From contig JACPDH010000046.1 in the NCBI GenBank assembly GCA_016184115.1, forward strand, positions 1 to 39,404: DNA of 39,404 bases, given 5' to 3'. Source of the stretch: Acidobacteriota bacterium (lineage in GTDB: Bacteria > Acidobacteriota > Thermoanaerobaculia > Gp7-AA8). Below the pieces are notes generated by a model. The model was not told the origin of the DNA. It made no database searches and was given only the letters and a program-made list of their open reading frames with translations. Position numbers and translations under genes: made by a program. This document shows, piece after piece, positions 1 through 29,927 of the stretch (position 1 is the first letter of the stretch; each line of letters starts with the position of its first letter).

Positions 1-206
1 TGCTTCGGATCGAAGATCTCGCCGTTCGCGGTCGGACGCCCGGCGAATTCGTCCCCGTACCAGCTGGCAAGGCCGCGAAGCTCGACGACCTCACCGGGAG
101 GCGGAGGCGCCGGTCTCGTCGTCGCGCATGCCGCCAGCCACAGTGCCCCGAGCGCAAGCAGCGGCCACGAAGCCGGGTGCCAGCCACGTACGGAGTGTGA
201 GATCAA
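1..206 (-). CDS. rlpA: RlpA-like double-psi beta-barrel lipoprotein (3' end outside window)
   Basis: Reading the minus strand from a TTG at 206 gives a short N-terminus, a hydrophobic stretch ending in the lipobox LAAC, a proline-rich linker and then the start of an RlpA barrel: GLASWYGDEFAGRPTANGE, matching the family pattern ASWYGxxFxGxxTANGE. RlpA proteins are outer-membrane lipoproteins; some are septal lytic transglycosylases acting on denuded glycan, others only bind peptidoglycan. The window edge removes most of the barrel and any SPOR domain, so enzymatic activity cannot be judged. The TTG overlaps the purB stop as TTGA, implying translational coupling. The family call rests on this motif and the lipobox; the TTG start is inferred. 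Confidence 0.82.
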   Translation of the reverse strand, partial: MISHSVRGWHPASWPLLALGALWLAACATTRPAPPPPGEVVELRGLASWYGDEFAGRPTANGEIFDPK

Positions 207-1639
207 ACCCGCACCTCGCCGACCTCGTCCGCGACGAGATTGCGCCTACTCGCGAGAATCGGATCGACATCACTCTCGAGGAACCAGCCGACCTGCTCGG
301 GAGAGAGCCCGACGAACTCCGAAGGTCGAGCGAGCGCGCGGACGTCGTCGTCATTCAGTTCGATCGCCGGGTCGCTGGCGATCCGCTCGAGAAGGTCGTT
401 GTGTTGCGCGCCGCTCTTGATCGCATCGACAGCCGCCATCGAGTGAACGCGCACCCGCTCGTGCAGCTGCTGGCGATCGCCGCCGCGCCGCACCCCTTCC
501 ATCATGATGTTCTCGGTCGCGATGAACGGCAGTTCACGCGCCACGTTCGCTTCGATCACTTCTTCGTGCACCACGAGTCCGCCGACGATGTTGTCGTAGA
601 GCAACGCAATCGAGTCGGCAGCGAGGAACGCCTCGGGGATCGCAATGCGCCGATTCGCCGAGTCGTCGAGCGTCCGCTCGAACCACTGCGTCGCTGCCGT
701 GTGCGCCGGGTTCTGCGTGTTGATGATGAGGTGCCGCGCGAGCGAATCGATCCGCTCGGCACGCATCGGGTTCCGCTTGTATGCCATCGCCGAGGAGCCG
801 ATTTGCGACTCCTCGAACGGCTCCTCGATCTCGCGCATGTGCTGCAGCAGGCGCATGTCGAACGCAAACTTCGACGCCGACTGTGCAAACCCGCCGAGCG
901 TCGCCACGATCTGAGCATCGACCTTGCGCGTGTACGTCTGTCCCGACACCGGATAGCTGCGTGTAAATCCAGCCTTCGCGGCGACGAGCAGCTCGAGCTT
1001 CCGCACTTTCTCCGCGTCGCCGTCGAACAGCTTGAGGAACGACGCCTGCGTTCCGGTTGCGCCCTTCACGCCGAGGAGCCCGATCTGGTCGAGCCGGTAC
1101 TCGAGCTCGTGGAGGTCGATGAGCAGGTCGTGCAGCCAGAGCGTCGCGCGTTTGCCGACTGTCGTCATCTGCGCCGGCTGAAAGTGAGTGAACGCGAGGG
1201 TCGGGGTCGACTTCCATCGCCACGCAAAGTCGCGAAGTCGCGCGATGAGCGTCACGATCCGCCGTTGCATGATGCGCAAACCTTCGCGCATCTGAATCAG
1301 GTCGGTGTTGTCTCCCACGAAGGCCGACGTCGCTCCGAGATGGATGATCCCCTTCGCTCCCGGAGCCTGAAGCCCGAAGGCGTGCACGTGCGCCATGACG
1401 TCGTGCCGCACCTCACGCTCGCGTTTCTCCGCCTCCTCGTAATTGATCGTGTCGGCGTGTGCACGAAGCTCGGCAATCTGCTCTTCGGTGATGGGGAGGC
1501 CAAGCTCGCGCTCTGCTTCCGCGAGTGCGATCCAGAGCTTTCGCCACGTCGTGAACTTGAAATCGGAGGAGAAGACGCGGGACATATCCCGCGATGCGTA
1601 CCTTTCGGTAAGCGGGTTCGAAGGCTTGTTGCGATTCAC
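203..1639 (-). CDS. purB: Adenylosuccinate lyase
   Basis: Cleaves SAICAR to AICAR and adenylosuccinate to AMP, each with release of fumarate, in cytosolic purine synthesis. The fumarase/aspartase-superfamily signature GSSAMAYKRNP is at about residues 281-291, and the TFTHFQPAQ-like segment (LAFTHFQPAQ) holds a conserved active-site region. The sequence resembles the eukaryotic ADSL-type subfamily (YAS..MS near the N-terminus; KRNPMRAERI) more than the E. coli type. I choose the GTG at 1639 (478 aa): the frame stays open to an ATG at 1690, but the extra 17 residues are not family-like, and a TATAAT box lies 6 nt upstream of the GTG. The 3' end overlaps the RlpA-like gene. The family call is secure; the start is not. 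Confidence 0.95.
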   Translation of the reverse strand: MNRNKPSNPLTERYASRDMSRVFSSDFKFTTWRKLWIALAEAERELGLPITEEQIAELRAHADTINYEEAEKREREVRHDVMAHVHAFGLQAPGAKGIIHLGATSAFVGDNTDLIQMREGLRIMQRRIVTLIARLRDFAWRWKSTPTLAFTHFQPAQMTTVGKRATLWLHDLLIDLHELEYRLDQIGLLGVKGATGTQASFLKLFDGDAEKVRKLELLVAAKAGFTRSYPVSGQTYTRKVDAQIVATLGGFAQSASKFAFDMRLLQHMREIEEPFEESQIGSSAMAYKRNPMRAERIDSLARHLIINTQNPAHTAATQWFERTLDDSANRRIAIPEAFLAADSIALLYDNIVGGLVVHEEVIEANVARELPFIATENIMMEGVRRGGDRQQLHERVRVHSMAAVDAIKSGAQHNDLLERIASDPAIELNDDDVRALARPSEFVGLSPEQVGWFLESDVDPILASRRNLVADEVGEVRV

Positions 1640-1645
1640 TCCCGG

Positions 1646-1651
1646 ATTATA
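1646..1651 (-). promoter_or_regulatory. Candidate -10 box (TATAAT) of purB
   Basis: A perfect TATAAT on the minus strand ends 6 nt before the GTG chosen for purB, which would put the transcription start at the start codon. No good -35 is visible and there is no usable Shine-Dalgarno sequence, consistent with a leaderless message. Confidence 0.5.
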
Positions 1652-1755
1652 GGCCGGTCCCGGGTGGAGGGAGACGATTTTTTGTAGCAAAAAGAGAGGG
1701 CGAAATGAACGGCATAGAATGCTGCATCAACGATGCAAACAAAGACGCCGGTTAA

Positions 1756-17557: not shown

Positions 17558-20500
17558 CTACTCCCCGTCCAGAAACCTCACCAACCCACCCCATCGCTGA
17601 TTTACCTGAAAGCCGTGCTTGGCGAACAAACGACCAAGGAAGAAGTTCGTCTTCGCAACCGTCGCTCCCTGAGCGGCCATTCTGACGCAGAAATCCTCGA
17701 GCAGCTTGCCGCCTAACCCCTTGTTGGTGAGCGAGTCGGCGACGACGATGCCGTCGACATACACCGATCCCGCCTCCTGCCAGCGATAGCAGAGGCCTCC
17801 GACGATCCTCTCCTCATCGTCGGCAATGACGAGATGCAGGTCGTGCTCCGCGACATGCTTCGGGTAGTCGCTTTCGAGCAGCAGGCGATAGAGGTGGCCA
17901 ATCTCCGCCGGCGATATCGGCTCGCGAACGACGTACGCGCTACCGCCCTCGTCGCAAACCTCGGAGCGAACGATCACACGATGCCCGGCGGTCTCGCCGA
18001 GAGCATAGAGCTCGAGTCGTTGCGTCCTCCTCGCCATCGGGAAGACCATCCGGCTGAAGACTTCGCGATCGCCGGAATCGGCAAGCAGCCCCTGCAGCGT
18101 GGATAGCTCCTCGAGGTGCCCCGGAAGCGCGCGCGTGTCGTCGAGCCGTCTTGCGATGAGCCGATCGAATGCCTCGTGCACGTCCGCGCCCGCGTTCCTG
18201 AAGTAGGTGTGCTGGTAGACGTAGTAGCGGTAGGCTTCGGGGAAGCGCTCGAAGCGATAGAGATGGATCATCTGGATGACGGCTTCTTCGCGCGCCGCGA
18301 AGCTCGCCGTCATGTTCGTCCGCTCCCAGTCGAGAAAGCGATGGATCGCACAGTGGACCGGCAGCGGAATGTAAGGACGGGCGTCGAGTCGCGCTCGGAA
18401 ACCGGCCAGCTCCCGCGATAGCAGGGCTACATCGGCGGAGGGCGCGACGCCCGAGAGCGCTGACTCGAGCATGTCGAGGAACGTCGTCGCCCGCTCCTCC
18501 CCGAGCGCTTCGATGCAGGCCTCGAAAATCCACTCCAGATTCAACGTCGCGCGACTGTGGGGATAATGCGCTTCCGTTAGGCGGTAGAAGCTCCTCAGCA
18601 ATGGCCTCACGAGAGAGAGCGGACCGGAATAGGGTCGCCATCCGGCGATCGAAAGGATGCTCGCCGTCTCGTGAAAGTCGGCATCGGGGAGGGCGACGTT
18701 CTCCGGCGTGACCGATCCCGGAACGATCCTGTATCCGCTCTGTTCCCAACCACGGAAGAACGCCGCCATCGATCTGACGAAGAGGCGCCGCCACGCCCAC
18801 GCCGTCGCCTCCGCATCGCGCACGTCGCGCTGACTCGAAAGCTCCCGGACCCGTTCCCACGCGGTGAGGTCGCTGACATAGGCGACTGCCATCGCGCCCA
18901 GGTCCCTCCGCCAGACGCCGAAGCGAGGAAACGCCGGCGCCCCGACGACGTGCCCCGAGAGCGCGGTCAGCCAGCGGACCGTCTCGCGAACCGCCGGCGT
19001 ACGCAGCGCTTTCCCAATGACGAGGAGCAGATCGTAGTGCCGCCCTTCGGAGAGGTTGATGCCTAACCGGTAGATGTGAAGCTGGTGCTGCGACAACATC
19101 GGAGAGATCCAGAGCCCCTCCGATGCGACGCGCGCCCATGAAAAGCGTTGGTCGCCAAACGCCCGCGCGATCGCCTCGACGAGAAACGTCGAGTCGAACA
19201 GCACGCCCTCGAGCTGCGCGCGGTCTACCGCCGGAATGCCGTACTCGAACACGACCTTGTCGATCGGACGGGCCGGCTCGGGCTCGCCTACCGCCTCGGC
19301 GAGCGCCTCACGGTACCAGTCGGCAAGTTTGTGCAATGCGCGATCCGCCTTCCGCGCGAGTGCCGGGTCCTCGTGAAACAGCGCCCAGCACGCGAGCTCC
19401 GACTGGACCGTCGCAAAGTACTCCCGGTCATGGCGCGCGAAATCGGCGAGGAGCCTGAAGCTCCGCTCGAACTGGCGCCGGCGTACCGGCGTCGCAGGCC
19501 ATTCGAGCGTCGTCCGGTAGTGGTAGAGCCGGTGGCGCAGTGACTGAAGCCGCCGCTCCCCTCGGCGCGCGCTTGCGATCAGCGCGATGCTCTCTGGCGT
19601 GAGGTAGGTCTGCCCTGACTCGAGGAACGTGGCGTACGAGTCGCTGCTCACCGATCCCGATTCATCGAGAAGCAGCACGCGATAGGCGAGCGCCCGGATC
19701 GCCTCTTCTCGGCGATAGGCGAGCGCTTCCAGGCGGCGATGAATGACCGAGGCCGTGCGTGCGTCAACCCGCGCGAGCTCGTGGTTGAGCGCTTCGACCG
19801 CGCCGCGCGCCTCGAGCTCGTCTCCGAAAAGCGCAGGGATGCAAAGCGCATGGATCTCGCGCAACCGGTCGTCGTCGAGGCGAGCTCGCGTGGCCAGGTG
19901 CGACGGTGCCGGCTCCGACTTCGGAATCCTCACCTTCTCCTCGACGCCACGCAGCGGGAGCTCCCACCCTGGCTTGCACGGCGAGAATGCGACGAGCGAC
20001 GCGTTCCCGATCCAGAGGCGCGGCTGCCGCGCGAAGAGGCCGAGATCGACGACGTCGCTCGCGAGCCGGTAGGCAAGATCGCCGACGCGCACCGAGCCAT
20101 CCACTTCGCGCACGACGGAGAGTCTCGTGCCGCTTCGGCGGTTCCTGACCCCGCCGTTTTCCACGACGATGTCGTCCTCGAGAATTCCGAGGTCGCGGAA
20201 GAACCAGCGCGGAATCCTGACGCGAAGCCGCCTCGCAATCAGCTCGACGTGGTTGCTCGCGTAGAGCTTGTCGATGACTTCCGAGAAGTTCGCCTCGATG
20301 TTCTTCCGGCGGAACGATCCCTTCGCGGTTAGTTCGTCCTTCTCCGCCTCGAAGTCGCGGTCGATCACGGCGAAGCGGACAGCGCGCTCGTAAGGCGCGA
20401 GCCCGGAATTCACTGAGGCGACGATCTGGCCAAGGTACTCGAGGACGTCCTCCTCGGAGCGCCCGTCGAGCACTGGATCGGTACGATCGGGGACGACGAG

Positions 20501-22171
20501 CAACACGTTGTGATCGCGATGATCGCCCGCGAGAAAGACGCGACGGAATCCCGGAACCGCCTCGAACCGCTGCTCGACCCGTTGCGGGGCCACGGTCTGA
20601 CCGCGACTGTTTTTGTAAATGTCCTTGATGCGATCGACGATCTCGAAATATCCGTTAGGCTGCCTCGTGAACAGGTCTCCGGTGGCGATCCACTGCTCGG
20701 CATCGGGATCGAGTGCGGGAAGCGATGCAGGAGCGCCCAACTCGTCGAGATACGTCGCGACATAGGGTCCAGCAATCAGCAACTCTCCCTGCTCGCTGAG
20801 CCGCGCGCGCAAACCCGGCAGCGGAATGCCGACCGATGCGTCGAGGTACTCTCCGGGAGGCGTCATGGTGATTCCGCCCGTCGCCTCGGTCATCCCGAAT
20901 CCGCTGCAGAGATCGACGCCGTGTCGCTGGAAAAACCGGAAGACCTTGGGATCGAGATAGCCGGCGGCGGAAAGCCCCCAGCGGAGCCGATCGCCAACGA
21001 TCTCGCGGAACATCGCCGCTTCGGTGTCGGTGTCGCCTGCCCGATCCATCGCCTCGAGGCAGGTGTCGCGAATCTGCGTCCAGCGGATCGGAATGCTGAT
21101 GAGCCCCGTCGGGCGGACACGTCCCATGTCGGCGATCAACGATTCGGCCGAGGGGCTTCCCGCGAAGATATAGGTCCCACCCCAGAAGATCGTCCCTAAC
21201 ATCTCGAGATACCGGCCGAAGGTATGAAAGAGTGGCAGATAGCAAAGGAGTACTTCGTTCTCCCCGACGGCTGGTAGTGCGGCGGCGCGGGCGAAGCGCT
21301 TCGAAACGAGATTGTACTGACTGAACACGACTCCCTTGGGATTGCCCGTGCTCCCCGATGTGAACATCACCGTGGCGGGAGCAAAAACGTCGGGGCGCCT
21401 CGACTCGAGTCGCGCCGCGGCGGCCGCGAGATCGATCCGTGCACAGGCCTGGCGAAGCGGCATCGCCTCGAGCCCGCGAATCGCCGGCAACGCGCTTCGG
21501 ACTCCAGTCTGGAAGACGCAGAAGCCGCGTCGAGTCTTCGCACGAACTTCGGCGAGACGCGCGAGCCGCTCGTCGCTGTCGGTCACGACGACGTTGATGT
21601 CGAGGCGCTCGAAGATCCACGAGATCGTCTCCACATCGAAATGGACGTTGAGCGGCGTGTCGAGGATCCCGTAGAGCAGACAGGCGAGGTCGGCACTCGC
21701 GGCATCGATGCCGTTGTCGCAGAAGATGGCGACGCGCGGCTCGGCCGGACAGGTCGTGAGAATCACCCCTGCGATCGCTCGCGCGTAGCTCTCGATCTGG
21801 GCGTAGGTCCAGCTCGTCGCGCCCTCGTCGCGGCTGTCCTCGAAGAGCACACGACCGGGATGTTCGCGCACACGCGCCGCGAGCAAGTCGCCGAGCGAAT
21901 AGCGACAACGGCGGATTGCCCGGAACGCCGTCTCTGCCCATCGTTCGCGCAAGCCGAGCTCAGGAAGCGAACGCAGAAACGCGCTCGTCCCCGTACGTTC
22001 GAGATAGTCGCGCCAGTTTGCGTGAGCGAGCTCGCGCGGGCTTCCCGACTCGAGCAGCGTCTCGACTCCGGCGACGACCTCGCGCGCTGCATCCTGCGCT
22101 TCCTCCGATTTCGGAGCTGCGTTGCTCCAGTGACGAAGGAGCTCCTCCAGATCGACCGCTTCAACGTTCAT
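17558..22171 (-). CDS. Three-part fusion: acyl-adenylating (ANL) enzyme, kinase-like middle, GNAT acetyltransferase
   Basis: About 1537 residues; positions below count from an in-frame GTG at 22222 that is probably upstream of the real start (ATG 22171, residue 18). The N-terminal third is an AMP-forming synthetase of long-chain acyl-CoA synthetase type: P-loop VMFTSGSTGNPKG (285-297), GFGMTEATGG (441-450), TGD (514-516), DRIKDIYKNSRG (530-541). The A10 region reads ELTAKGSFRRK (630-640), with Ser where LACS enzymes have the adenylating Lys. Residues about 1000-1230 look like an aminoglycoside-phosphotransferase-type kinase fold without the catalytic Asp (VPGSVTPENVAL, 1167-1178). The rest of the middle is helical and unassigned. 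Residues about 1425-1550 are a GNAT domain with the GLGGKLLED acetyl-CoA loop. Five (G/C)CCTAAC heptamers lie in the gene. Confidence 0.85.
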   Translation of the reverse strand: MNVEAVDLEELLRHWSNAAPKSEEAQDAAREVVAGVETLLESGSPRELAHANWRDYLERTGTSAFLRSLPELGLRERWAETAFRAIRRCRYSLGDLLAARVREHPGRVLFEDSRDEGATSWTYAQIESYARAIAGVILTTCPAEPRVAIFCDNGIDAASADLACLLYGILDTPLNVHFDVETISWIFERLDINVVVTDSDERLARLAEVRAKTRRGFCVFQTGVRSALPAIRGLEAMPLRQACARIDLAAAAARLESRRPDVFAPATVMFTSGSTGNPKGVVFSQYNLVSKRFARAAALPAVGENEVLLCYLPLFHTFGRYLEMLGTIFWGGTYIFAGSPSAESLIADMGRVRPTGLISIPIRWTQIRDTCLEAMDRAGDTDTEAAMFREIVGDRLRWGLSAAGYLDPKVFRFFQRHGVDLCSGFGMTEATGGITMTPPGEYLDASVGIPLPGLRARLSEQGELLIAGPYVATYLDELGAPASLPALDPDAEQWIATGDLFTRQPNGYFEIVDRIKDIYKNSRGQTVAPQRVEQRFEAVPGFRRVFLAGDHRDHNVLLVVPDRTDPVLDGRSEEDVLEYLGQIVASVNSGLAPYERAVRFAVIDRDFEAEKDELTAKGSFRRKNIEANFSEVIDKLYASNHVELIARRLRVRIPRWFFRDLGILEDDIVVENGGVRNRRSGTRLSVVREVDGSVRVGDLAYRLASDVVDLGLFARQPRLWIGNASLVAFSPCKPGWELPLRGVEEKVRIPKSEPAPSHLATRARLDDDRLREIHALCIPALFGDELEARGAVEALNHELARVDARTASVIHRRLEALAYRREEAIRALAYRVLLLDESGSVSSDSYATFLESGQTYLTPESIALIASARRGERRLQSLRHRLYHYRTTLEWPATPVRRRQFERSFRLLADFARHDREYFATVQSELACWALFHEDPALARKADRALHKLADWYREALAEAVGEPEPARPIDKVVFEYGIPAVDRAQLEGVLFDSTFLVEAIARAFGDQRFSWARVASEGLWISPMLSQHQLHIYRLGINLSEGRHYDLLLVIGKALRTPAVRETVRWLTALSGHVVGAPAFPRFGVWRRDLGAMAVAYVSDLTAWERVRELSSQRDVRDAEATAWAWRRLFVRSMAAFFRGWEQSGYRIVPGSVTPENVALPDADFHETASILSIAGWRPYSGPLSLVRPLLRSFYRLTEAHYPHSRATLNLEWIFEACIEALGEERATTFLDMLESALSGVAPSADVALLSRELAGFRARLDARPYIPLPVHCAIHRFLDWERTNMTASFAAREEAVIQMIHLYRFERFPEAYRYYVYQHTYFRNAGADVHEAFDRLIARRLDDTRALPGHLEELSTLQGLLADSGDREVFSRMVFPMARRTQRLELYALGETAGHRVIVRSEVCDEGGSAYVVREPISPAEIGHLYRLLLESDYPKHVAEHDLHLVIADDEERIVGGLCYRWQEAGSVYVDGIVVADSLTNKGLGGKLLEDFCVRMAAQGATVAKTNFFLGRLFAKHGFQVNQRWGGLVRFLDGE

Positions 22172-22341
22172 CGTGGCATCCCGTCCGCCCGGCGATTGCA
22201 CCACACCAGCAGAGTCGCGCACGGGAAGCTCTGCATCAGCGAGGGGTAACGCACGTCACATCGAGGTGTTCGAGGAAGGATGCGTCATGCCATGCAGGCG
22301 AGGCCAACGGCGAACGAGAGGTTCGTCACGAAGGACGTGAC

Positions 22342-22362
22342 GGGCGACGCAACGCGTCGCCC
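22342..22362. terminator. Hairpin downstream of the amidase gene
   Basis: GGGCGACGC (22342-22350) and GCGTCGCCC (22354-22362) form a perfect 9-bp stem with a 3-nt loop, 52 nt beyond the amidase stop. No clear U-tract. The rest of 22223-22413 shows no gene. Confidence 0.6.
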
Positions 22363-22413
22363 TGAGGAGTCAATCCGTGCGGGCGATCCTTCGCCGCTCG
22401 CTTCGCGGTAGCG

Positions 22414-23988
22414 TTACTGGAGTTTCTTGAGGAACTTCGGCTCACTCCATGCCTTCGTGGTTTGCTCGAACGCGTAGGCGAGACCGATGAGCTTCGGCTC
22501 GCTCCATGCCTTGCCGAAAAAGAGGAGGCCGACGGGAAGGCCGAGGACCTGTCCTGCCGGCACGGTGATGCTCGGATAGCCGGCGACCGCCGCCGGCGAG
22601 GAGGCGCCGCCCGTGTACGCGTCACCGTTGACGAGATCGATCGGCCACGATGGCCCGTTCGCGATCGCAACGAGTGCATCGAGCTTATGGCTCTCGATCA
22701 CTGCGTCGATCCCTTTCGTGCGCGTGACCTCATGGTTCTTCGCAAGCGCGTCGAGGTACTCTTTGTCCGTGAGCGGACCCTTCTTCGCGGCCATCTCGAA
22801 GATCTCCTGCCCGAAGTAAGGCAGCTCCTTTTCAGCATTCGCCTTATTGAAGGCGATCAGGTCGTCGATCGTCTTCAACTTCGCGCCGGGCCTCGCGGCG
22901 AGGTAAGCCTCGAGATCGGCTTTGAATTCGTAGAGGAGAACTTCGAACTCGCTCTCTCCGATCGTCTCGAGCTTCTCGATCTCGACCTCGACGATCGTCG
23001 CGCCCTTCGCCTTCATCGCGGCGATCGACGACTCGAGAATCGGCTCAACCTTCGGGCCCAGGCCGAACGACTTCGACCTCACGACGCCGATGCGGGCACC
23101 CTCGAGCGCGTTCGCGTCGAGGAATTTCGTGTAGTCGGGCGGAATGTGCTCGCCACTATTCTTCGTCTCGGCGTCGCGCGGGTCGCCACCCGCGAGCGCA
23201 CCGAGAAGCAGCGCCACGTCGGCGACTGTTCTCGCCATCGGGCCTGCGGTGTCCTGCGAGTGCGCGATCGGGACGATGCCCGATCGGCTGACGAGCCCCA
23301 CGGTCGGCTTGAGTCCGACGATTCCGCACACCGAGGCAGGCGAAACGATTGAACCATCCGTCTCGGTTCCGACCGCGATCGGCGCAATCCCGCTCGCCAC
23401 TGCGACCGCCGAGCCCGAGCTCGATCCCGACGAGTTGCGGTCGAGCACGTAGGGATTCCTCGTCTGGCCGCCGCGACCGCTCCAGCCGCTGACTGACTTG
23501 GTGGAACGGAAGTTCGCCCACTCGCTCAGGTTCGTCTTGCCGAGGATGATCGCGCCCGCCGCGCGGAGCCGCTCGACGACGAATGCATCGCGCTCGGGCT
23601 TCGAGCCGAGGAGCGCAAGAGACCCCGCCGTCGTCTGCATCCCGTCGGCCGTGTCGATGTTGTCTTTGATCAGCACTGGAATCCCATGCAAAGGGCTTCG
23701 TGCTCCCGACTTCGCCCTCTCGGCGTCAAGCGCCCGCGCGATCGCGATCGCGTCGGGGTTCAACTCGATGACGCTGTTGAGCTCGGGCCCCATTCTGTCG
23801 ATCTTCTCGATTCGCCTCAGATAGAACGAAACGAGGTCGACCGAGCTCAGCTCTCCGCTCGTCAGCATTCGCTGGAGATCGGGAACAGTAGCCTGGTCGA
23901 GCCGCACCGTCGCCTGGAGCTGCGTGGAGACAAGCGCAAGGGCGAGGGCTAGGGCGAAAGCTGGGGCGATTCGCGGGAAGCGAGACAT
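22414..23988 (-). CDS. Secreted amidase (amidase-signature family)
   Basis: A 524-residue amidase-signature hydrolase with a cleavable-looking signal peptide (hydrophobic core 9-20, then STQLQA), so it acts outside the cytoplasm. The catalytic triad is visible: Lys108 (VLIKDNID), cis-Ser189 in the Gly/Ser-rich motif (NSSGSSSGSA), and nucleophile Ser213 (ETDGSIVSP). These fit the Lys/cis-Ser/Ser triad spacing of the family (24 residues between the serines). Cytosolic GatA is excluded by the signal peptide and by the absence of gatB/gatC. Substrate unknown; relatives act on peptide amides and fatty or aryl amides. GGAGGA precedes the ATG; monocistronic, divergent from fbaB. Confidence 0.92.
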   Translation of the reverse strand: MSRFPRIAPAFALALALALVSTQLQATVRLDQATVPDLQRMLTSGELSSVDLVSFYLRRIEKIDRMGPELNSVIELNPDAIAIARALDAERAKSGARSPLHGIPVLIKDNIDTADGMQTTAGSLALLGSKPERDAFVVERLRAAGAIILGKTNLSEWANFRSTKSVSGWSGRGGQTRNPYVLDRNSSGSSSGSAVAVASGIAPIAVGTETDGSIVSPASVCGIVGLKPTVGLVSRSGIVPIAHSQDTAGPMARTVADVALLLGALAGGDPRDAETKNSGEHIPPDYTKFLDANALEGARIGVVRSKSFGLGPKVEPILESSIAAMKAKGATIVEVEIEKLETIGESEFEVLLYEFKADLEAYLAARPGAKLKTIDDLIAFNKANAEKELPYFGQEIFEMAAKKGPLTDKEYLDALAKNHEVTRTKGIDAVIESHKLDALVAIANGPSWPIDLVNGDAYTGGASSPAAVAGYPSITVPAGQVLGLPVGLLFFGKAWSEPKLIGLAYAFEQTTKAWSEPKFLKKLQ

Positions 23989-28760: not shown

Positions 28761-28937
28761 TACTTAGTGCTGAGCACTTAGTGCTGAGTGCTGAGTGCTG
28801 AAAACTGAGGGAGGCTGGAAGCGACGACTCTGGGCGCCTCGTTCCGAGCTCCGAGTCCCGTGTCTTCTCGGTGTGCTTCTTCTTGTTCTGACGTCTCTTC
28901 GCTCGTACTCAGCACTCGGTACTCAGCACTCGTACTA
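28761..28937. repeat. AGTGCTG-type heptad tracts in inverted orientation
   Basis: Left tract about 28763-28810 (CTTAGTG, CTGAGCA, CTTAGTG, CTGAGTG, CTGAGTG, CTGAAAA) and right tract about 28905-28934 (its inverse, GAGTGCT/GAGTACC units). The right tract abuts the TAG stop of the DUF4388 gene at 28935-28937. Between them nothing recognisable. Likely terminator region for that gene. Confidence 0.75.
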
Positions 28938-29693
28938 GACCCTCACCTTCACCTTCACTCCGCCCGCGAGCTCCTTCACCTGGATCAGCTTGAGTGCGTA
29001 GAGAGCATAGAGGATCTTCGCGTTCTCCGCCGGCGCGAGGGGGCCGTACTGGATCAGCTCGTAGAGCGCCTTCGTCCCGTCGACGAGCTCGTACTGCACC
29101 TGTTCCTCCGGAGTAAGAGTGAGGTTCGAGAAATCGGCGGCGGGCACGGGCGCAAGAATCGTCGCTTTCTTCCCCATCCGGTTGACGAGCGTCCGCGCGT
29201 CGGCGATGCGGCGCACGCCCTGAATGACCGCCTGTCGCGTCGGAATGTTGAGTTTGATGAACTCCTGCGCTCGCTCGCGCCCAGGCTGGAAGCTGACGCT
29301 GCCTTCGGCCCATTCAAACACCGACCAGACGATGTCCTGCACCTGTTCCTTGACCGAAACGAAGAGCTGCTTCGGTTCGATCGCGCGCATCTCGACGAGG
29401 ATGACCCCCTGGCGCTTCGCCCCCGACTCTTTGAGCCGCGTGACGCTCTCGTCGAACTGCGCGTTCGTGATCAGCCCTTGCTTGAGCAGGCGAACACCGA
29501 GCGAGTCGTCGATGTTCGTCGACGTGGCGAAGATGATGTTGCCCTCGTCGATGAAGATCTGCCTCGTCTCGTCGCCGCGGACACACTCGACCACACCGGG
29601 AACCTTGTACCGGTGAATGGTGACGAGGACCTCAGGAAGCGGGGTTTGAGAGAGGTCGCCCTTGAACAGGCTCTTCGCGGAGTTCGCAGACAT
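28935..29693 (-). CDS. DUF4388 (PATAN-type) protein
   Basis: A 252-residue protein. The N-terminal half (about 5-105: FKGDLSQTPLPEVLVTIHRYKVPGVVEC ... QIFIDEGNIIFATSTNIDDSLGVRLLKQGLI) is the DUF4388 domain, found in delta-proteobacterial and acidobacterial proteins, often with response regulators or in motility and gliding systems. The C-terminal half is a second helical region of unclear identity (VRRIADARTLVNRMG; ALYELIQYGPL). No signal peptide or membrane segment. It lies 42 nt after tatA and may share its transcript. Role unknown. Confidence 0.82.
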   Translation of the reverse strand: MSANSAKSLFKGDLSQTPLPEVLVTIHRYKVPGVVECVRGDETRQIFIDEGNIIFATSTNIDDSLGVRLLKQGLITNAQFDESVTRLKESGAKRQGVILVEMRAIEPKQLFVSVKEQVQDIVWSVFEWAEGSVSFQPGRERAQEFIKLNIPTRQAVIQGVRRIADARTLVNRMGKKATILAPVPAADFSNLTLTPEEQVQYELVDGTKALYELIQYGPLAPAENAKILYALYALKLIQVKELAGGVKVKVRV

Positions 29694-29735
29694 CGTGAGC
29701 GTGTGCGGCGCGTCTGCCGCGCCTGTCGTCAGGGT

Positions 29736-29927
29736 TCAGGAATGCTGCTCTTTCTTGTCTTCGAGGGCGGCCTTGGAATCCTTGTCCTTCCCTTTGATCG
29801 AGTCGCGGAAATTGGCGATACCTTCGCCGAGCCCCTTGCCGAGTTGCGGCAGGCGGCCGACGCCGAAGAGCAGGACTACGATCGCGAGGATGACCAGCAG
29901 CTCCCAGATTCCAAGTGAACCGAACAT
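29736..29927 (-). CDS. tatA: Sec-independent protein translocase TatA
   Basis: A 63-residue protein from ATG 29927 ([22 protein letters not shown]): an N-terminal membrane helix at about 7-22, the conserved FG hinge ([17 protein letters not shown]), an amphipathic helix and a charged tail. TatA oligomerises to pass folded proteins through the membrane together with TatC, which is not in the window. The ORF extends 12 nt further to a TTG, but GGGAGG lies inside that stretch, so the ATG is right. A TACTAT/TATGAT-like region lies about 30 nt upstream. TatB is excluded by length and tail composition. Confidence 0.93.

Follow-up and report, generated by a model that had tools for sequence, protein, structure and literature searches.

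We identified a single gene of an Acidobacteriota bacterium in which an AMP-forming ligase-type domain, a degenerate kinase fold and a C-terminal GNAT domain are joined in one chain, and its product is probably a hitherto undescribed enzyme for acylating proteins of central metabolism. The gene lies in a stretch of 39,404 nucleotides (the window), where it occupies positions 17558..22171 of the reverse strand, with an ATG start at 22171 and a stop codon at 17558-17560; the coordinates of all parts of the protein given below refer to this strand. The locus is a single intact ORF of 1537 codons, encoding 1537 aa. An alternative GTG start 51 bases before the ATG would extend the ORF to 22222, but the ATG is favoured because the same-genus orthologue (L001, from a Thermoanaerobaculia MAG) is likewise exactly 1537 aa long from its own ATG. 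The two proteins share 82% identity overall, and comparison of the window copy with L001 gave a whole-chain dN/dS of 0.14, indicative of strong purifying selection. Values for the individual parts were 0.15 for the ligase, 0.27 for the beta-rich module, 0.09 for the helical array, 0.10 for the kinase-like core and 0.05, the lowest in the chain, for the GNAT. The sole relaxed segment was the fast-evolving N-terminal leader (residues 1-90; 21902..22171), with a dN/dS of 0.52. This pattern shows that the gene is intact and constrained, most strongly at the GNAT. By eye, short GC-rich inverted repeats were noticed in the intergenic region upstream of the gene (window 22220-22410).

A Pfam search with the 1537 aa sequence matched AMP-binding at residues 99-472 (PF00501, E 2e-52), AMP-binding_C_3 at residues 522-639 (E 2e-10) and Acetyltransf_1 at residues 1439-1521 (PF00583, E 4e-7; 30.9 bits against a gathering cut-off of 20.7), leaving approximately 790 residues (about 640-1430) with no match. 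NCBIfam returned nothing beyond ligase matches far below cut-off, and neither collection holds a model for the middle region or for the whole chain. This order agrees with the initial annotation, made from the sequence alone, which described a synthetase-like module, a long unassigned middle and a C-terminal GNAT, and knew of no characterised protein so arranged; we likewise found none in Pfam, NCBIfam, the PDB or the literature searched, and the open-licence literature contained no description of a ligase–pseudokinase–acetyltransferase architecture. The synthetase-type part matched AMP-forming families only, in both Pfam and NCBIfam. Carrier protein, condensation and reductase domains were absent from the Pfam matches across the 1537 aa, and a carboxylic acid reductase or NRPS-like reading was discarded on account of the missing carrier and reductase domains. 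An AlphaFold model of residues 640-1537, built with 42 relatives (mean pLDDT 86.7, pTM 0.80), resolved the C-terminal portion into a beta-rich module, a helical array, a kinase-like mixed domain, a helical extension and the GNAT, in that order. The beta-rich module (residues 641-760; 19892..20251) carries invariant P, W, G and Y residues and an invariant LWxGN motif, had no sequence match, and gave nothing usable in profile searches. The helical array (residues 768-961; 19289..19870) and the helical extension that follows the kinase-like core (residues 1261-1384; 18020..18391) were delimited from AlphaFold models.

Relatives of the middle region were found in 37 of 396 sampled Acidobacteriota and in 7 of 249 sampled Gemmatimonadota (the phylum of L002, Longimicrobiales), with full-score relatives in 16 of 296 sampled Bacteroidota (the phylum of L003, Bacteroidales); the remaining Bacteroidota matches were weak and involved the GNAT alone. 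The fusion is therefore present in 3-9% of the sampled genomes of these phyla. On complete contigs the relatives have frames of about 1500-1800 aa in which all three parts are co-linear, two being longer, whilst shorter relatives occur mainly at contig ends, together with a few split or fragmentary matches. These full-length relatives and the dN/dS values rule out a chance overlap or a frameshift fusion. Two relatives (L024:7747-14553(-) and L027:7554-13523(-)) carry, ahead of the ligase domain, an additional open stretch of approximately 400-700 residues in which Pfam matched nothing significant; it could represent an N-terminal domain or simply a missing stop codon. A profile of the architecture, proposed in the initial annotation, recovered the full-length co-linear fusion in at least three phyla, and no complete stand-alone middle region was seen. 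A tree of 54 proteins split into two groups of 27 (subfamilies A and B) with a support of 1.0, each holding Acidobacteriota, Bacteroidota and Gemmatimonadota members; the window protein belongs to subfamily A. The fusion is an old family, kept across two deep subfamilies. Its distribution is patchy, since just 2 of the 18 genomes of the window's own taxonomic family have it. No match was found in a plasmid search with residues 640-1537 or in a phage search with the kinase-like part, and an origin in a mobile element was rejected accordingly.

The kinase-fold domain (residues about 978-1260; 18392..19240) was located by AlphaFold modelling and fold search. A separate AlphaFold model of residues 964-1384, built with 54 sequences, reached a pLDDT of 91.1 and a pTM of 0.89, and the best 50 matches in a fold search with this model were all kinase-fold proteins. 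The best was Bud32 (Z 13.1, rmsd 4.2 A over 218 residues), followed among the matches listed by PsiK, the corramycin phosphotransferase, LxmK, methylthioribose kinase, RIO1 and APH; the kinase-like part of the 640-1537 model matched Bud32 with a Z of 12.5. In such searches a Z below 13 can arise by chance for helical bundles, but the kinase fold was accepted because the match spans both lobes and the list of matches is uniform. A true kinase fold in the middle region is thus established by prediction, and the likeness was ruled out as an artefact by the separate 964-1384 model and its fold search. The structure prediction of the middle that the initial annotation had proposed therefore points to a kinase fold, rather than to an unrelated known one. 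Foldseek with the longer model ranked Vps34, mTOR and ATM top with TM scores near 0.2, matches that we take to reflect only the predicted helical domain preceding the kinase fold. A sequence profile of the kinase-like part found just two short, chance-like matches. The domain resembles Bud32/PRPK, APH, RIO, methylthioribose kinase and LxmK in overall fold (Z about 10-13 over approximately 200 residues), but is only about 10% identical to them, and the window's subfamily lacks the catalytic Asp, the DFG Asp and the beta3 Lys.

The kinase residues were located by sequence pattern and the order of DSSP elements rather than by superposing coordinates. The HRD-type loop of the window copy reads PGSVTPEN (residues 1151-1158; 18698..18721), with Ser in the Asp position and Asn1158 kept, and the DFG position (SILSIAGW) contains no Asp. 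In subfamily A the loop follows the pattern PG-x-x-x-P-x-N, with a varied residue at the catalytic Asp position and the Asn in 27/27 sequences; the catalytic Asp is found in 15/27 sequences of subfamily B. Across the family the DFG position has Ser/Thr or mixed Ala/Ser/Asp without a conserved Asp, in a register uncertain by two residues, and no conserved Lys was seen in beta3 among the 54 sequences. The window copy was classified as a pseudokinase because it lacks the catalytic Asp, the DFG Asp and the beta3 Lys. Kinase activity would not be expected of such a domain, and for subfamily A an active kinase is ruled out by the missing catalytic residues. The kinase-fold-like segment lacking the catalytic Asp, as first described, is therefore recovered in both the fold match to Bud32 and the PGSVTPEN loop. 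Other positions are strongly retained: Arg1035 in beta2 (53/54), an acidic residue at 1047 in beta3 (53/54; Asp 46, Glu 7) and Asn1158 (46/54). The retention of Arg1035, Asp1047 and Asn1158 hints at a ligand pocket in the pseudokinase.

The ligase part belongs by profile to the ANL superfamily, a classification by which we do not claim ligase activity. Its AMP-binding N-domain (residues 99-472; 20756..21877) is followed by the AMP-binding_C_3 sub-domain (20255..20608). The A3, A5, A7 and A8 motifs are present in nearly all relatives (TSG-T-G-PKG, SGFGMTEATGG, TGD and DRxKD/E-IYKN, respectively), A3 reading TSGSTGNPKG in the window copy. The A10 motif (ELTAKGSFRRK, residues 613-623; 20303..20335) is unusual. 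All 54 sequences share the pattern LTxK-x-(S/T)-x-x-R, in which the residue after the Lys is almost always Gly, the usual Lys site is Ser/Thr in 54/54 (Ser619 in the window copy), and Lys617, two residues before it, and Arg622 are invariant. Three AMP-binding paralogues from the window genome retain the A10 Lys at the same spacing (ELTPTMKIRR, EITPSLKVKR and EITPTLKNIR). The A10 Lys is normally needed for adenylation, for which it moves into the active site, and K617 may take over this role. Studies of AcsA, luciferase and PrpE link the first half-reaction to the A10 Lys (PMC11255334); with Ser/Thr at that site throughout the family, ligase activity is putative. Among solved structures, the ligase part is closest to the adenylation domain of a carboxylic acid reductase (5MSO, E about 3e-25); unlike the window protein, however, carboxylic acid reductases have carrier protein and reductase domains, and their A10 Lys aligns with the Ser/Thr of the fusion family.

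The C-terminal domain (residues 1412-1537; 17561..17938) is a member of the GNAT superfamily as judged by Pfam profile and predicted fold. A profile of family residues 640-1537 found GCN5 histone acetyltransferases as its best match (E 6e-10), via the GNAT alone, and the modelled fold matched YhbS (Z 15.5), GCN5 (Z 15.4) and PCAF (Z about 15). Although GCN5/PCAF-type enzymes are the best profile and fold match, the fusion has no bromodomain or chromatin context, and its GNAT sits inside a bacterial fusion. Residue 1473, in beta4, is Asp or Glu in 54/54 sequences and lies, in the profile alignment, two residues past the position that we take to be the GCN5 general base. The first residue of the CoA loop (Arg/Gln-x-x-Gly-x-Gly/Ala) is Arg in 26/27 subfamily B sequences and mostly Lys/Arg in subfamily A. 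The loop of the window copy reads TNKGLG, with Thr where Arg/Gln is usual.

Flanking ORFs were clustered across loci, and citrate synthases were identified with NCBIfam. In subfamily B, 16 loci spread over Acidobacteriota, Bacteroidota and Gemmatimonadota have a citrate (Si)-synthase gene of the eukaryote type within about 2.5 kb, placed upstream, downstream or convergently. Eukaryote-type citrate synthase was present in 16 of the 18 Acidobacteriota genomes with subfamily B, against 112 of 396 overall, counts that ignore phylogeny. In the Bacteroidota loci L097, L099, L100, L104, L106 and L107, genes for squalene synthesis (HpnC/HpnD and HpnE) adjoin the citrate synthase, and could possibly form an operon with it and the subfamily B gene. 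Subfamily A showed a different association: 11 Acidobacteriota loci lie near genes for glutamate (methylaspartate) mutase subunits and methylaspartate ammonia-lyase, some of them also near a class I fumarase. Among the 15 genomes with methylaspartate ammonia-lyase, 13 carry subfamily A, all 13 coming from two families, and again the counts ignore phylogeny. Around the family's loci we saw no conserved biosynthetic cluster, and the neighbourhoods point to the regulation of central-carbon enzymes rather than to such a cluster. A neighbourhood is nevertheless an association and does not identify the target.

The window copy itself is flanked by an amidase gene and a gene encoding a MOSC protein, and fits neither pattern. 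The amidase-family gene just upstream (22414-23988(-)) clusters with genes near the subfamily A loci L041 and L045. Two further ORFs of the window, 128-1687(+) of 519 aa and 28860-29918(+) of 352 aa, had no Pfam match. The window genome contains neither a eukaryote-type citrate synthase nor methylaspartate ammonia-lyase; it does encode three other citrate-synthase-family proteins (G000:C91, C50 and C115), none of them eukaryote-type, and one sirtuin.

We favour, still tentatively, a role for the fusion as a multidomain acyltransferase of proteins: it would link the state of a carboxylic acid, CoA or nucleotide pool to the enzymes through which acetyl-CoA enters central carbon metabolism. The AMP-binding domain would bind ATP and a carboxylic acid and convert them to acyl-AMP and then acyl-CoA, or would only sense them. 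The helical array and pseudokinase may bind a ligand, a partner enzyme or both and determine how the chain is arranged. Through the GNAT, CoA would then donate its acyl or acetyl group to an amino group, for which a lysine in a metabolic enzyme is the likeliest candidate; for subfamily B the candidate target is citrate synthase. We infer catalysis at each of these steps, together with the acyl group and the protein target, and acyl transfer to a protein specifically because enzymes recur as neighbours and biosynthetic ones do not. Against this interpretation, the window genome and the neighbours of the window copy lack both metabolic links, and the window GNAT has Thr at the start of its CoA loop. 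The earlier suggestion of a self-contained acyl transfer machine is plausible as a hypothesis. Most ligase motifs and the GNAT acid are kept, and the A10 lysine is replaced. A more ambitious version, in which the single chain would make its own acyl-CoA, gate transfer through a ligand-binding pseudokinase and acylate citrate synthase or glutamate-degrading enzymes, seems to us quite improbable; if true, such a self-fuelled chain would be a regulator of TCA-cycle entry in several bacterial phyla.

A GNAT fold cannot tell a protein substrate from a small molecule, and GNATs often act on small amines. The fusion might thus be a biosynthetic enzyme whose GNAT acylates a small amine or an amino acid with ligase-made acyl-CoA, yielding an N-acyl metabolite, with the pseudokinase merely acting as a scaffold or binding the amine. 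Both half-reactions would then sit in one chain, and the fold matches include the small-molecule kinases PsiK and methylthioribose kinase and the corramycin phosphotransferase. We consider this unlikely, however, as no conserved biosynthetic cluster lies nearby and it is genes for citrate synthase and the methylaspartate pathway that recur as neighbours. Those same neighbours, as pathways that use or form acetyl-CoA, would suit an acyl-CoA ligase that supplies a CoA thioester to the adjacent pathway and is modified by its own GNAT as a feedback brake; GNATs are also well known to modify AMP-forming ligases (PMC11255334). Such self-regulation is improbable: the lysine usually targeted, that of A10, is Ser/Thr in 54/54 sequences (albeit with an invariant Lys two residues before it), and the large helical and pseudokinase part would be left without explanation. 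A sensor or scaffold role, directly analogous to type I Pat with its inactive synthetase-type domain, seems quite improbable. Here the ligase and pseudokinase would do no more than bind ligands (acyl-AMP, AMP/ATP or CoA), leaving catalysis to the GNAT and pooled acetyl-CoA. In its favour, the A10 Lys position is substituted family-wide, the pseudokinase lacks catalytic residues, and an inactive synthetase domain serves Pat types I/II as an acetyl-CoA sensor (PMC8556138). Against it, all other ANL motifs are kept, which is more than pure sensing requires, and the invariant K617 may take the place of the A10 lysine.

For the protein acyltransferase interpretation, the closest precedents are regulatory. 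In Pat types I and II, an inactive synthetase-type domain is joined to a GNAT, and the proteins regulate metabolism (PMC8556138). The fusion family shares with Pat/PatZ a link to acetyl-CoA metabolism and the joining of a GNAT to a large synthetase-type domain; the Pat synthetase domain, however, is an inactive NDP-forming one whereas that of the fusion family is an AMP-forming ANL domain, and Pat has neither the helical array nor the pseudokinase. On our best reading, the fusion family may work in the manner of Pat types I/II but is not a member, because of its AMP-forming synthetase domain, helical array and pseudokinase. The AcsA-AcuA pair of Bacillus similarly brings together an AMP-forming ligase and a GNAT in acetyl-CoA metabolism. 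However, AcsA and AcuA are two proteins, AcuA acting on AcsA in trans, whereas the fusion family is a single chain, and where AcsA has its regulatory A10 Lys the fusion family has Ser/Thr.

Bacterial GNAT protein acyltransferases have been divided into five types by their regulatory domain, none of which carries an AMP-forming ligase domain or a pseudokinase (PMC8556138). A conserved family with this domain order, present in several phyla and recurring near citrate synthase genes, would add another type of acyltransferase, and would make the control of TCA-cycle entry by acylation testable in little-studied phyla.
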